Positions 13,351 to 30,661 of a DNA stretch of 41,800 nt are shown here, one piece after another (position 1 is the first letter of the stretch; every line of letters begins with the position of its first letter). The stretch spans positions 1-41,800 of the forward strand of contig JAJFTU010000107.1 of NCBI GenBank assembly GCA_021372775.1, written 5' to 3'. The translations under genes and the position numbers were made by a program. Source of the stretch: a bacterium. GTDB lineage: Bacteria > Acidobacteriota > Polarisedimenticolia > J045. The notes below the pieces were generated by a model. That model made no database searches. It was not told where the DNA came from and was given only the letters and a program-made list of their open reading frames with translations.

Positions 13351-15030
13351 ATGGACGCCGCACGGGCCCTGTCCGTTTCCTTGGCGCTTTGCGCCGTCCT
13401 GACCGGCGCCGCCGGCGCGCAGACGCCGCCGGACGCGCGCCCCTCGGGACTCGTCGAAGAGGTCAAGGTCTCGCTGGTGCAGTTCAACGTGCTGGCGACC
13501 GACAAGGACGGCCGCCCGATCGCCGACCTCAAGCCGGAAGACCTCGCGGTGCGCTGGGACGGCGCCGAGCGGAAGCTGGCCTTCCTGCAGGGCTGGGCGG
13601 AAGGGACGCCCGCGCCGGCCGCGACCCCCGCGCCGGCCGCGCCCGGGCCGGCCGCGGCGCCGGCCGCTTCGCGCGGCCGCTGGCTCGTCCTCTTCTTCGA
13701 CGACTTCCTCTCCACGCAGTACACGCGCCTCCGCTCGCTCGCCGCGGCGCGGACCTTCGCGCGCGAGCATCTGCGTCCGAACGACCACGTCTCGGTCGTC
13801 GCCTTCAACGGCAAGGTCAACGTGCTGCTGCCGTTCAGCGTCGACCGCTCCGCCCTCGCCGCCGCCCTCGACCAGAGCGAGGCGCTGACCAAGCGGGCGA
13901 CCGAGGACCGCTACGACGAGCTGACCTCGCTCGTGGTGATGATCCGCGAGCAGTGCAATCCCGACGGCGACCCCGCCTCGGGCATCGTGACGACCACGAC
14001 GCTGCAGCGCCGCGCGGCCTGCGCCTCGCGCTTCATCGGCATGTGGCGCACGCAGAACGAGCGGTACGTGGACGTCTACACGGCCGGCCTGATCGCGCTG
14101 ATCCGCTCGCTCGGCGCCGTGCCCGACGCCAAGCTGCTCGTCCTCTTCGGCGACGGCGTGCCGCGCGACCCCGCGCTCGAGGCGCTCGACGCGAGCGAGA
14201 TCGCCCTCGGCGCCGGCGCCTCGCGCTGGATCGCCACGCGCCCGCCCTACTCCTACGAGACGGTCTACCGCCATCTCGCGGACGCCGCGGCCTCGGCCCG
14301 CGTCTCGATCTTCCCCGTGCTCTCCGGCGAGCGGGTCCGCTCGGCGACGCTCGGCCCGTCGCTCTACTGGAAGCTGGGCGGCGGCACTCGTCCGCCGACG
14401 GTGGACATCGCCGCGCGCACGCAGCGGAACATGAAGGACGGCCTCGAGGAGATCGCCGCGCGGACCGGCGGCGCGGTCGTCGAGTCGATGGATCCGGGCG
14501 CTTCGGTGACGAAGATCTCCGACCTCTCGCTCGGCCTCTACACCGCCGGCTTCTACCCGCCGCGCGCCGCGGAAGAAGGCGCGACGCCGGAACTGAAGAT
14601 CACGTCGCGGCGTCCCGGCGTGACGCTGAAGTTCGGCGCCGGCCTGGCGCGTCCGGTCGCGGCCGCCCCGCGCGGCGAACTCCGCGCGACCCCCGCCGGG
14701 GCCTGCGCCGCGGGGCAGCGGCGGGCGATCACCGTGCGCGCGCGGGTCGAGCGCGCGTCCCTTTCGTTCGAGCGGGTGCGCGACGCCTACTCCGCCAACC
14801 TCGCGCTGCTCTTCACCGTCGTCCGCCCCGACGACGGCGAGGCGCTGTTCACGCAGTACCGCTTCTTCAACCTCGCCGAGACGGTCGAGGAGCACCAAGC
14901 CGCCGGCCGGCCCGATCCGGAACTGGAGTTCCTGATCACGGCGCCGTGCGAGACGCTCGTCGTCTCCTGCACCGCGACCGACGCCTGGACCGGCGCCTCG
15001 GGCGTCTACTCGGCGCTCGTCGCGAAGTAG
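13351..15030 (+). CDS. Secreted VWFA-related domain protein (acidobacterial type)
   Basis: The protein has 559 residues. The start is ATG 13351, with GGAGG seven bases upstream; the more upstream ATG 13297 lacks a ribosome-binding site. A signal peptide is evident (hydrophobic residues 6-19, cleavage after AGA23), followed by a beta segment VKVSLVQFNVLATDKDGRPI and then a von Willebrand factor A domain at about 105-300 starting LVLFFDDFLS. The classical MIDAS DxSxS is degenerate (DDFLS). This layout matches the VWFA-related family that is abundant in Acidobacteriota. The molecular role of that family is not known; a periplasmic or surface protein-binding role is plausible. A Pro/Ala-rich linker lies at about 85-110. 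Confidence 0.85.
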   Translation: MDAARALSVSLALCAVLTGAAGAQTPPDARPSGLVEEVKVSLVQFNVLATDKDGRPIADLKPEDLAVRWDGAERKLAFLQGWAEGTPAPAATPAPAAPGPAAAPAASRGRWLVLFFDDFLSTQYTRLRSLAAARTFAREHLRPNDHVSVVAFNGKVNVLLPFSVDRSALAAALDQSEALTKRATEDRYDELTSLVVMIREQCNPDGDPASGIVTTTTLQRRAACASRFIGMWRTQNERYVDVYTAGLIALIRSLGAVPDAKLLVLFGDGVPRDPALEALDASEIALGAGASRWIATRPPYSYETVYRHLADAAASARVSIFPVLSGERVRSATLGPSLYWKLGGGTRPPTVDIAARTQRNMKDGLEEIAARTGGAVVESMDPGASVTKISDLSLGLYTAGFYPPRAAEEGATPELKITSRRPGVTLKFGAGLARPVAAAPRGELRATPAGACAAGQRRAITVRARVERASLSFERVRDAYSANLALLFTVVRPDDGEALFTQYRFFNLAETVEEHQAAGRPDPELEFLITAPCETLVVSCTATDAWTGASGVYSALVAK

Positions 15031-26016: not shown

Positions 26017-26032
26017 GGGACAGTTGCCGACG

Positions 26033-26599
26033 ATGGCCGAAACGATCCCCCCCGAGCCCGACGAGGCGCTCGTCGCCCGCGCGCGGCGGGGGGAGCAGGA
26101 CGCCTTCGCCGAACTGGTGACGCGGTGGCAGCGGCCGCTCTTCGCCAAGGCGCTGCGCAATTCCCGCAACCTCGAAGACGCCGACGACCTGGTGCAGGAA
26201 ACGTTCCTCAGGGCGTGGCGCGAACTGGGGCGTTTCCGCGACGACGCCGCCTTCGGCGGGTGGCTGTTGCGGATCATGGCCAATCTGCTCGCCGACCGCG
26301 GCCGGCGGCGCGGACGGGAAACGCCGGGCGCGGAGACGCTGGCCGAGGCGACGCCCGATCCGCGGCCCGGGCCGGACGACGAGCTGGCCCGCGGCGAACT
26401 CGAGGACGAGCTGCGGCGGGCGCTCGAAGCGATTCCGCCGGGACGGCGGCGGGAGGTATTCCGGATGCGCTTCGTCGAGGGAATGCCCTTGAACCAGATC
26501 GCCGACGCCTTGGGCGTGCACTCCGGCACGGTGAAGGTCCACGTCTTCCGGCTCGTCCGCGACCTGAGGCGGCGCCTGACCGGAAAGGAGGATGCATGA
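26033..26599 (+). CDS. ECF-family RNA polymerase sigma factor
   Basis: The protein has 188 residues from ATG 26033. A TTG at 26024 in the same frame has better Shine-Dalgarno spacing and would add three residues. Region 2 runs AFAELVTRWQRPLFAKA to the -10 recognition segment DADDLVQETFLRAWREL, and region 4 has the helix-turn-helix PLNQIADALGVHSGTVKVH. A Pro/Asp-rich linker joins them, as in ECF factors. Its stop codon overlaps the next ATG (ATGA). The downstream single-TM protein is the likely partner and the Spy-like protein a likely target, suggesting an envelope-stress unit. Confidence 0.95.
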   Translation: MAETIPPEPDEALVARARRGEQDAFAELVTRWQRPLFAKALRNSRNLEDADDLVQETFLRAWRELGRFRDDAAFGGWLLRIMANLLADRGRRRGRETPGAETLAEATPDPRPGPDDELARGELEDELRRALEAIPPGRRREVFRMRFVEGMPLNQIADALGVHSGTVKVHVFRLVRDLRRRLTGKEDA

Positions 26600-27018: not shown

Positions 27019-27061
27019 CCCTGCGCCCGCCGACGCGAGGCGAGAGATGGGAGGGAAACCG

Positions 27062-27559
27062 ATGAAGACCATGACCCGAGCGATCCTCTTCGCCTTCGCC
27101 GCCGCCTGCGGCGCCGCCGCCGCGCTCGCCGCGCCGCCGGCCCCCGCGACGGAAGCCGCGGCCGCGACGCCGGGGATCCGCGCGTGGTGGGAAAACCCGC
27201 GGGTCGTCGAGCGGCTGAACCTCGCGCCCGATCAACAGAAGCGGATCCAGGAGCTCGTCTTCCGGCACACCGAGAAGATGATCGATCTGCGCGCGGAGAA
27301 GCAGCGCGCCCAACTCGACCTCTCGCGCCTGCTCGACGCCGAGGCGCTCAACGACGGCGCCCTCGACAAGGCGGCCGAGGCGCTCGACGCCGCGCAGTGC
27401 TCCGTCGAGAGAGCGCAGACGCGGCTGCGGATCGAGATCGCCCGCGTGCTCAGCCGCGAGCAGCGGCGGGCGCTCCGGGATCTCGTGCGGGAGCGGGGCG
27501 AGGAGATCAAGCGGACGCTGCGGGACGCGGCGCGGGATCGTCGGCAGCAGCAACGCTGA
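27062..27559 (+). CDS. Spy/CpxP-like periplasmic helical protein
   Basis: The protein has 165 residues. ATG 27062 is preferred over ATG 27047 because GGGAGG stands just before it. A signal peptide covers about residues 1-24 (cleavage after ALA). The mature part is almost all helical and charged, with LNLAPDQQKRIQELVF resembling the LTxxQ motif of Spy/CpxP, then long Arg/Glu-rich helices ending QQQR. Relatives are periplasmic chaperones or metal-stress sensors. It has a single Cys in the mature form. It is the third gene of the sigma-factor operon and is followed by a terminator. Confidence 0.78.
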   Translation: MKTMTRAILFAFAAACGAAAALAAPPAPATEAAAATPGIRAWWENPRVVERLNLAPDQQKRIQELVFRHTEKMIDLRAEKQRAQLDLSRLLDAEALNDGALDKAAEALDAAQCSVERAQTRLRIEIARVLSREQRRALRDLVRERGEEIKRTLRDAARDRRQQQR

Positions 27560-28092: not shown

Positions 28093-28160
28093 TTACGCGA
28101 CGTTCAACGCTTCCGACGCCAACGTGCGTCCGCAACCCAGAGCATGGAGGAATGGCAAGC

Positions 28161-28397
28161 ATGGCGAAGAAGGCTCCGGCGAAGAAGGCCGCCAAGGGCG
28201 GGAAGAAGCAGGTCGAGAAGGAAATGCTGATCGTCGCCAGCAAGGTGAAGAACGCGCTGCGCGAGCACGACGTCAACGTCGCTTCGGACGCGCCGGCGGC
28301 GCTCAACGAAGTGATCTACTGGTACATCGCGCAGGCGGCGAAGCGCGCGGTGGCCAACGGCCGCAAGACCGTTCGCCCCCACGACTTCACTGTTTGA
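28161..28397 (+). CDS. Bacterial histone-fold protein with lysine-rich N-terminal tail
   Basis: The protein has 78 residues. ATG 28161 is chosen because GGAGG ends ten bases before it; ATG 28152 would add MAS. Residues 1-20 form a tail with eight Lys among Ala and Gly. Residues 20-78 read as a histone fold: helix 1 about 20-37 (EMLIVASKVKNALREHD), loop 1 VNVASD, long helix 2 about 44-68 ending AKRAVANGRK, and loop 2 plus a very short helix 3 (TVRPHDFTV). The NGRKTVRPHDF ending is the same kind of signature as in archaeal histones and in the Bdellovibrio histone HBb (Bd0055). Such proteins bind DNA as dimers. The gene stands alone between its own promoter region and a strong terminator, as expected for an abundant nucleoid protein. 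Binding mode and abundance are inferred. Confidence 0.85.
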   Translation: MAKKAPAKKAAKGGKKQVEKEMLIVASKVKNALREHDVNVASDAPAALNEVIYWYIAQAAKRAVANGRKTVRPHDFTV

Positions 28398-28417
28398 CGG
28401 CGTTCCGGATCGCGTGA

Positions 28418-28450
28418 GGCGGTCCCGCTTTCGGCGGGGCCGCCTTTTTT
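28418..28450 (+). terminator. Strong rho-independent terminator of the histone-fold gene
   Basis: GGCGGTCCCGC (28418-28428) pairs with GCGGGGCCGCC (28434-28444), with one G-U pair and a TTTCG loop, followed by six T (28445-28450). It lies 20 bases after the stop codon. Confidence 0.9.
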
Positions 28451-28574: not shown

Positions 28575-29048
28575 ATGAACGGATCGAAGTTGTCCCCCAG
28601 CGAAGCGGCTTTCCGCGAGGGGCTGGAGTTGTGCCGCGCGAAGCGCTGTCCGGAGGCGTTTCCGCACCTCGAAACGGCGTTGGCGCTGCTCGTGGACGAG
28701 CCGGAGGCCCGCCACGGCCGGCTGCTGCGTTCCTTCTACGGCATGGCCCTCGCCGTGGTGCGCGGCGACCTGCCCCGCTCCCGGCGGCTGTGCGAGGAGG
28801 CGATCGCCGACGGCCCGATGGACGCCGACCTCTACTGCAATCTGGCGCGGGTCTACTCCCTGATGGGGAAGCGCCAGTTGGCGGTGGAGTCGATCGCCAC
28901 GGCGCTGTCCGTCAACCCGGCGCACGGCCCCTCGCTGCAGCTGCAGCGGGAGATCGGACGGCGCCGCCGTCCCGTCCTGCCGTTCCTGTCCCGCGACAAT
29001 CCGCTCAACATCGCCCTCGGCAGAATGCGGCACCGGATGCTCGGTTGA
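28575..29048 (+). CDS. TPR-repeat protein
   Basis: The protein has 157 residues, no signal peptide and no membrane helix. Two to three tetratricopeptide-like helix pairs can be read: AFREGLELCRAKRCPEAFPH, LCEEAIADGPMDADLYCNLA and YSLMGKRQLAVESIATALSV, then a basic C-terminal tail. It is probably a protein-protein interaction scaffold. Partners are unknown. It lies 177 bases after the histone-fold gene, beyond its terminator, so it is a separate unit. Confidence 0.75.
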   Translation: MNGSKLSPSEAAFREGLELCRAKRCPEAFPHLETALALLVDEPEARHGRLLRSFYGMALAVVRGDLPRSRRLCEEAIADGPMDADLYCNLARVYSLMGKRQLAVESIATALSVNPAHGPSLQLQREIGRRRRPVLPFLSRDNPLNIALGRMRHRMLG

Positions 29049-29187
29049 CCCTTCCGCGGGGCCGACCGCTGGCCGCGGCCGCGCGACCGCTGGCCCTCCG
29101 GGGGAACTCCGGCCGCTGCGTCGGCGGATGTTTCGGCCAAGACTATCCTTGCCGCGGGGGACGTTCCCCGCGCGGATGGGAGGCACG

Positions 29188-29982
29188 ATGAAGCGCAGAT
29201 TCGCACTCTTCGCGGTCGCGGTTTCGACGGCGACGCTTTTGGCCGCCGGCTGCTCCTTCGGCGCCTTCGCCGGGTTGACGGGGCTGCGCGGTTCGGGCCG
29301 CAAGGGGACCGAGTCGCGCGCGGTCGGCTCGTTCACGAAGATCGAGCTCCGGGGCTCGGTGGACGCCGAGGTCAAGGTCGGCGCCTCCGGCCCGCTCGTC
29401 GTCGAAGGGGACGACAACCTTCTCTCGAACGTCACCGCCGAGGTCCGCGGCGACACGCTCGTCGTCTCGACCAAGGAGCAGTACACCACCTCCAGGGTCG
29501 GCCTCAAGGTGCGCGTCTCGACGCCGCGGCTCGAGGGGCTCTCCATCGAAGGGTCGGCGGACGCGGTCGTCGAAGACCTCAAGGGCGAGCGGTTCAAGGC
29601 GAGCATCGCCGGCTCGGGCGACATGAGCATCCACGGCGGCGCCGACGTCTTCGAGATCGCGATCGCCGGCTCGGGCGACGTGAACGCCAGCGACGTGACC
29701 GCGCGCAAGGTCTCGGTCCACATCGACGGTTCGGGCGACGTCCGGCTCGTCGGCTCGGCGGAGGAGCTCGCGTTCCGCACGAACGGCTCGGGCGACATCA
29801 ACGCCGGCGACTTCAAGGTCAAGCGGGCGAAGGTCGAGCTCAACGGCAGCGGCGACGCGACGATCAACGCCTCCGAGGCGGTCGAGGCCGCGCTCAACGG
29901 CAGCGGCGACATTTTCCTCTTCGGGCAGCCGCCGCAGGTCAAGACGTCGGGCCACGGCAGCGGCGACATCGTTCGGAAGTGA
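29188..29982 (+). CDS. DUF2807 (head GIN domain) lipoprotein 1
   Basis: The protein has 264 residues. ATG 29188 has GGGAGG upstream. The lipoprotein signal ends in the lipobox LAAGC (Cys22), so the protein is lipid-anchored. The DUF2807 head domain starts at SFTKIELRGSVDAEVKVG and continues as a right-handed beta-helix-like part with seven GSGD turns (GSGDM, GSGDV and similar), the hallmark of this family. These proteins are cell-envelope proteins of unknown function, often found with sigma-factor or PspC genes. It is 10 bases from its paralogue downstream. Confidence 0.88.
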   Translation: MKRRFALFAVAVSTATLLAAGCSFGAFAGLTGLRGSGRKGTESRAVGSFTKIELRGSVDAEVKVGASGPLVVEGDDNLLSNVTAEVRGDTLVVSTKEQYTTSRVGLKVRVSTPRLEGLSIEGSADAVVEDLKGERFKASIAGSGDMSIHGGADVFEIAIAGSGDVNASDVTARKVSVHIDGSGDVRLVGSAEELAFRTNGSGDINAGDFKVKRAKVELNGSGDATINASEAVEAALNGSGDIFLFGQPPQVKTSGHGSGDIVRK

Positions 29983-29992
29983 GGGAGCGACG

Positions 29993-30661
29993 ATGAAGCG
30001 ATCCGCTTGGACGGTTGCGGTGTTGGCGGCGGCGGCCCTCGCGGCCGCGGGATGCGACTCCGCGCCGATCTCCCTGCCGGTCTCCGGCTCGGGCAACGTC
30101 GTGGAGAAGGTCCGCGACGTCGCCCCGTTCGAGCGGATCGCCGTCGGCGGCGCGGTGCGCCTCGAGGTCGCGGCGGGGCCGCGGCGCGTCGTGGTCGTCG
30201 GGGACGACAACGTCGTGCCGCTCGTCGCGACCGAGGTCCACGGCAAGACGCTGCGGATCTCCCAGGAAAGCTCCTTCTCGCTCCGCTCGGGCCGCGAAAT
30301 CACCGTGCGCGTCACGACGCCGAACCTCGCCGCGGTCGAGATCGGCGGCGCGGCGAAGGGCGACGTCCGCGGCGTCGCCGGGCCGCGCTTCGAGGTCTCG
30401 GTGGGCGGCGCGGCGGCGATGGACGTCGCGGGGAAGACCGACGACCTCGTGATCAAGATCACCGGCGCCGCGTCGATCGACGCCGCGTCGCTCGAGGCGA
30501 AGCGGGCCGACGTGGACGTCTCCGGCGCCGGACGGGTGAAGGTCCGCGCGACCGAGGCGCTGTCGGCCAAGGTCACCGGACTGGGGGACATCCGCTACGC
30601 CGGCGACCCCAAGACGGTCGAGCGGAAGATCCTCGGGGCGGGGCACGTCGAGCCGCTGTAG
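29993..30661 (+). CDS. DUF2807 (head GIN domain) lipoprotein 2
   Basis: The protein has 222 residues and is a paralogue of the preceding gene. The lipobox is AAAGC (Cys21). The head domain starts at PFERIAVGGAVRLEVAAG and has VGDDNVVPLV and ITVRVTTPNLAAVEIGG. Here the GSGD turns are replaced by GGAA, GAAS and GAGR, so the beta-helix surface differs from that of its neighbour. GAGGGAG precedes the ATG, and the spacing shows an operon. It probably arose by tandem duplication followed by divergence. Confidence 0.86.
   Translation: MKRSAWTVAVLAAAALAAAGCDSAPISLPVSGSGNVVEKVRDVAPFERIAVGGAVRLEVAAGPRRVVVVGDDNVVPLVATEVHGKTLRISQESSFSLRSGREITVRVTTPNLAAVEIGGAAKGDVRGVAGPRFEVSVGGAAAMDVAGKTDDLVIKITGAASIDAASLEAKRADVDVSGAGRVKVRATEALSAKVTGLGDIRYAGDPKTVERKILGAGHVEPL

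Follow-up and report, generated by a model that had tools for sequence, protein, structure and literature searches.

A predicted FtF-type histone with a lysine-rich N-terminal tail in a probable member of the Acidobacteriota

The window analyzed here, a stretch of 41,800 nucleotides, encodes a protein of 78 residues (ORF 28161-28397; translation MAKKAPAKKAAKGGKKQVEKEMLIVASKVKNALREHDVNVASDAPAALNEVIYWYIAQAAKRAVANGRKTVRPHDFTV) that, judged by its residues, is a face-to-face (FtF) alpha3 histone preceded by a disordered, lysine-rich tail. The explanation that we favor, with a probability of about 0.8, is that this protein forms a torus-shaped tetramer around which DNA is wrapped, that the tail adds DNA contacts, and that the histone works beside HU. 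The closest known structure is HLp from Leptospira perolatii (PDB codes: 9QT0, 9QT1, and 9QT2; PMC12701072), which shares with the window protein the fold, the one-turn alpha3, the R/N/R tetramer residues, the RD clamp, and the main DNA contacts. The coordinates of the gene, its elements, and its neighbors are given in Table 1.

Table 1. Location of the histone gene, its predicted elements, and neighboring genes in the window
Feature	Positions	Strand	Remarks
ECF sigma-70 family sigma factor	26024..26599	+	Upstream neighbor, kept in several orthologous loci
Metal_resist (PF13801) family protein	27047..27559	+	Upstream neighbor, conserved
Shine-Dalgarno-like GGAGG	28146..28150	+	10 nt 5' of the start codon; read in the sequence
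Predicted FtF-type alpha3 histone gene	28161..28397	+	78 aa plus stop
Predicted disordered lysine-rich N-terminal tail	28161..28220	+	Codons 1-20; 8 Lys, net charge +7; AlphaFold pLDDT 52-54
Predicted helix alpha1	28236..28262	+	Codons 26-34; DNA-contact positions S27, K28, K30, and R34 mapped on HLp S14, K15, K17, and K21
Predicted helix alpha2	28290..28355	+	Codons 44-65; putative dimer-dimer residue R62 inside, N66 just after
RKTVRPHD, RxTxxxxD loop-2 motif with RD clamp (R68, D75)	28362..28385	+	Codons 68-75; motif as in PMC11390915
Predicted helix alpha3, one turn	28377..28391	+	Codons 73-77; AlphaFold2 model
Intrinsic-terminator-like hairpin followed by a T-run	28416..28446	+	14 pairs
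TPR protein	28575..29048	+	Downstream neighbor, conserved in six family members

The AlphaFold2 model, calculated as a single chain from the window protein with ten relatives, contains three helices (residues 26-34, 44-65, and 73-77); pLDDT values exceed 90 in the core, whereas the tail is disordered. In alpha3 histones, alpha3 is cut to about one turn (3-4 residues), and in the model this helix is indeed a single turn, of five residues according to DSSP. Also, alpha2 is 4-5 residues shorter in alpha3 histones than in nucleosomal ones; here the comparison covers HLp, on whose shortened alpha2 the 22-residue helix of the model superposes. HLp is the top match of a Foldseek search against the PDB, with an rmsd of 0.5 Å over 57 residues, 47% identity, and a TM score of 0.97 by target length. 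In the same search, HBb from Bdellovibrio bacteriovorus superposes with an rmsd of 1.4-1.5 Å and the archaeal FtF histone HTkC from Thermococcus kodakarensis (PDB code: 9F2C; PMC11390915) with 0.8-1.2 Å, with higher E-values. Sequence comparisons give the same best relative. A phmmer search of the PDB sequences ranks HLp first (9qt0, E-value of 7.3e-9; HBb, 2.1e-3), and the profile of the family scores HLp at 67.7 bits, HBb at 47.6, HTkC at 39.1, and the nucleosomal HMfA at 17.5. HTkC belongs to the same FtF alpha3 fold class, but its identity is only about 30% and archaeal FtF histones are generally tailless (PMC11390915).

The curated histone models match weakly: with a score of 15.3 bits, PF00808 stays below its cut-off of 21.4 (residues 34-75), as does the archaeal histone model NF043032 with 20.3 bits and a cut-off of 50 (residues 29-75). 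Pfam and NCBIfam histone models alone would leave this gene hypothetical. Two other matches were discarded. EccE (PF11203) scores 17.9 bits against a cut-off of 23.7, is matched by only 2 of 18 homologs, and is contradicted by the fold; the matches of the family profile to H2B tails reflect lysine composition, at E-values of 0.2 or worse. A prior sequence-only reading had proposed a complete single histone fold, and the predicted helices together with the HLp match bear it out; the protein is a bacterial histone.

In FtF histones, an arginine and an asparagine lie at the dimer-dimer interface beside the RxTxxxxD loop, whereas the bacterial dimers lack this pair, and a torus-shaped tetramer is the defining feature of the group (PMC11390915). 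The pair corresponds to R41 and N45 in D4GZE0 and to R49 and N53 in HLp, where R55 also serves the dimer-dimer contact (PMC12701072). All three HLp residues have a counterpart in the window protein, namely R62, N66, and R68. Among 18 homologs, N66, R68, K69, T70, R72, D75, and F76 are invariant, which includes the three fixed positions of the loop-2 motif (R68, T70, and D75), and R62 is nearly so (at least 90%). The DNA-binding lysine conserved in alpha1 of FtF histones is likewise represented, by K28 and K30, invariant in the 18 homologs and aligned with K15 and K17 of HLp. Moreover, the five residues that make up 52% of the computed DNA-binding energy of HLp (R59, K21, K15, S14, and K17; PMC12701072) are all kept, as R72, R34, K28, S27, and K30, respectively.

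Not every HLp position is preserved. Five of its seven tetramer and clamp residues are kept, the exceptions being the tetramer contacts S52 (A65) and T61 (H74), which count against the tetramer, itself proposed from residue homology. Other changes are T56 to K69, which makes loop 2 read RKT, and K54 to G67, and in loop 1 the window protein has V40 and S42 in place of the DNA-contacting T27 and G29 of HLp.

The RKT sequence recalls HBb (Bd0055; PDB codes: 8CMP, 8FVX, and 9EZZ; PMC11317129 and PMC10627809), the second-best relative, which also has an alpha3 histone fold with a truncated helix 3 but no lysine-rich tail. HBb is a dimer that bends DNA. Bacterial dimers share RKT in loop 2 with nucleosomal histones; a strongly conserved K or R at this position is lacking in FtF histones (PMC11390915). 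A window protein that stays dimeric and bends or coats DNA is nevertheless unlikely. HBb lacks the FtF arginine and asparagine, which are present and conserved here; its loop 1 holds one extra residue that is absent from both the window protein and HLp; and it falls behind HLp by 20 bits in the family profile and by the rmsd of the model. The sequence-only reading had taken the very short helix 3 as favoring a bending or coating dimer. This argument does not hold because the feature is common to HBb, which bends DNA, and to HLp, which with a one-turn helix 3 is a tetramer in the crystal and in solution and wraps about 60 bp (PMC12701072). By analogy with HLp, the most likely state of the window protein is a torus-shaped tetramer wrapping a similar length of DNA.

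In such a particle, two chains would dimerize through a handshake of their alpha2 helices. Two dimers would then form the closed torus by way of loop 2, alpha3, and the C-terminal end of alpha2, with R62 and N66 of one chain facing R68, position 74, and F76 of its partner. The tetramer would carry about 60 bp of non-specifically wrapped DNA, held by S27, K28, K30, R34, K69, T70, and R72. The disordered lysine tail may then make non-specific electrostatic contacts with the same or a neighboring DNA segment, which would increase affinity and compaction in a way similar to the K/A/P-rich tails of HupB-type HU and of H1.

In the window protein, residues 1-20 hold exactly the eight lysines expected from the sequence-only reading, and K/R-rich tails with almost no acidic residues are present in all 12 strong orthologs of the class, the window gene included (20-33 residues, net charge of +7 to +18). 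The mean pairwise identity of these 12 proteins is 51% in the tail and 69% in the core. The tail is therefore conserved by composition, as expected for non-specific electrostatics. It is absent in two homologs from other classes of the phylum (L034 and L035) and in a deltaproteobacterial one (L003), all of which keep the same core, so the tail is dispensable in the wider family.

Tails of this kind raise the question of whether the protein mainly bridges or condenses DNA in the manner of H1, with the core docked on one duplex and the lysine tail on another. The presence of a tail in every strong ortholog of the class, with AKK/TRK-like repeats, speaks in its favor, as does a Phycisphaerae homolog with seven AKKAP repeats. 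However, the core residues that would contact wrapped DNA are intact, few class orthologs have a shorter or less charged tail than the window protein, and the tailless homologs retain the core. We consider this reading, as an account of the main role, rather unlikely, although bridging could also occur in addition to wrapping.

Concerning the gene itself, a second in-frame ATG occurs at 28152, only 1 nt after the GGAGG. The ATG at 28161 is preferred because its spacing is 10 nt, and most orthologs also show purine-rich, GGAG-like sites ahead of their start codons. The gene is flanked by a DUF2007 gene on the minus strand and, 177 nt downstream, by the TPR gene, so that transcription as a single-gene unit is plausible. 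Two terminator-like sites occur in the region, against an average of 1.3 in shuffled sequences, and the hairpin is the better one; a scan for a sigma-70 consensus promoter found none. The monocistronic layout described from the sequence alone is plausible and the hairpin is a good terminator-like one, but the high expression suggested on this basis does not follow, since a terminator is no measure of expression. Codon usage was also tried as a sign of high expression and is uninformative: the histone gene (CAI of 0.79) is not set apart by it from ribosomal-protein genes or from ordinary neighbors.

A further 11 class genomes carry orthologs that are 62-72% identical to the window protein in alignments spanning almost all of it. 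With its own genome included, 12 of the 41 genomes of the class and 8 of the 12 genomes of the family have a strong ortholog; 2 more class genomes give weak, divergent matches, and in a phylum-wide sample of 396 genomes, 17 show any match at all. The window genome contains no second significant copy. Substitutions between orthologs are most frequent at third codon positions; relative to L013, there are 23 changes at third, 5 at first, and 9 at second positions. Because of the orthologs and this concentration of changes at third positions, the ORF is not a chance one. In a tree of the core, which has modest support and only 58 columns, the sequences group largely by family and class. This grouping, the neighborhoods shared within the family, and the distribution agree with a vertically inherited gene that some lineages of the class have lost.

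The host lineage is probably Acidobacteriota, in line with the sequence-only reading. Nine proteins of the genome exceed the curated cut-off of acidobact_VWFA (TIGR03436), and none does in 14 control genomes. One of the nine is encoded in the window itself (13459-14631, +).

Three HU-family genes are present in the window genome and HU is found in 41 of 41 class genomes, which rules out a loss of HU as a correlate of the histone. The histone would thus work beside HU and not instead of it, probably as an accessory architect. This differs from HLp, whose host has neither HU nor Dps (PMC12701072).

The coexistence with HU, in every genome searched, could also be taken to mean that the histone fold serves something other than packaging, for example, regulation or the assembly of a complex of which the protein is a subunit. 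The patchy distribution and the nearby ECF sigma factor would agree with such a role. It is, however, very unlikely given that the main DNA-contact positions of HLp are kept and that all strong class orthologs have a positive tail; the neighbors vary between families and therefore give no functional link. As a functional clue, the neighborhood was in fact set aside: it is partly conserved within the family, differs between families, and includes no chromatin gene. Loci of family relatives contain extra intervening genes, which read as membrane-TPR and CinA-like and are absent in the window. Downstream of the TPR gene, the window carries a tandem pair of DUF2807 (head GIN domain) genes (29128-30661, +), probably a duplication.

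Bacterial FtF histones are known from Leptospirales, Planctomycetota, Bacteriovoracia, and Myxococcota (PMC11390915), phyla other than that of the window genome. They share the FtF core and mostly have charged N-terminal tails, and positively charged tails without conserved sequence have been reported as common among them (PMC11390915). The tail is therefore not new in kind, and the case made for it in the sequence-only reading loses part of its novelty. The possible novelty lies in the taxonomic group, probably Acidobacteriota, and in a clade that lies below the cut-offs of curated models, the kind of protein being already known. Acidobacteriota are absent from the main text of one survey (PMC11390915), and the main texts of the surveys consulted do not mention an Acidobacteriota clade, which may be listed in their supplementary tables.

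The bacteria with histones of the DNA-wrapping type would thus probably gain another phylum, and in this class both HU and a histone are kept, unlike in Leptospira, which has a histone without HU. Moreover, bacterial histone counts based on the Pfam and NCBIfam models may be low, since these proteins fall below the cut-offs. The natural variation in length and charge of the tail, including its absence, on a conserved core offers a comparative set for the function of histone tails outside eukaryotes. As a tentative and rather speculative extension, the class-wide tailed FtF clade, below the standard-model cut-offs, may combine the FtF interface with the nucleosomal RKT loop 2 and an H1-like tail of variable length, giving nucleosome-like particles with tails that occur alongside HU and in which the tail would tune compaction or be regulated by lysine modification.

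The searches also returned other histone-like proteins. The Phycisphaerae homolog comes from a MAG (L005, 4884-5168, +), and its tail of about seven AKKAP repeats is H1- or HupB-like. Two loci from the class of the window genome (L025 and L026) encode a different short histone-like protein with the core LIISKSRTK...NKRKTLxPQDL, for which L026 gives no match to any Pfam family; in genome G017, a protein of this type is encoded beside another histone-like gene (L024). In a viral contig of 63.9 kb (IMGVR_UViG_3300009506_000024; L054, 3980-4174, +), a 64-residue histone shows the full FtF signature (ERAKANGRKTVRATDL) and has no C-terminal tetramerisation domain; published "phage histones" differ, lacking the RxTxxxD motif. 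A second viral contig (IMGVR_UViG_3300023444_000001; L055, 3986-4177, +) contains a histone-like ORF of 63 residues that ends in YRAKANGRKTVREEDI.
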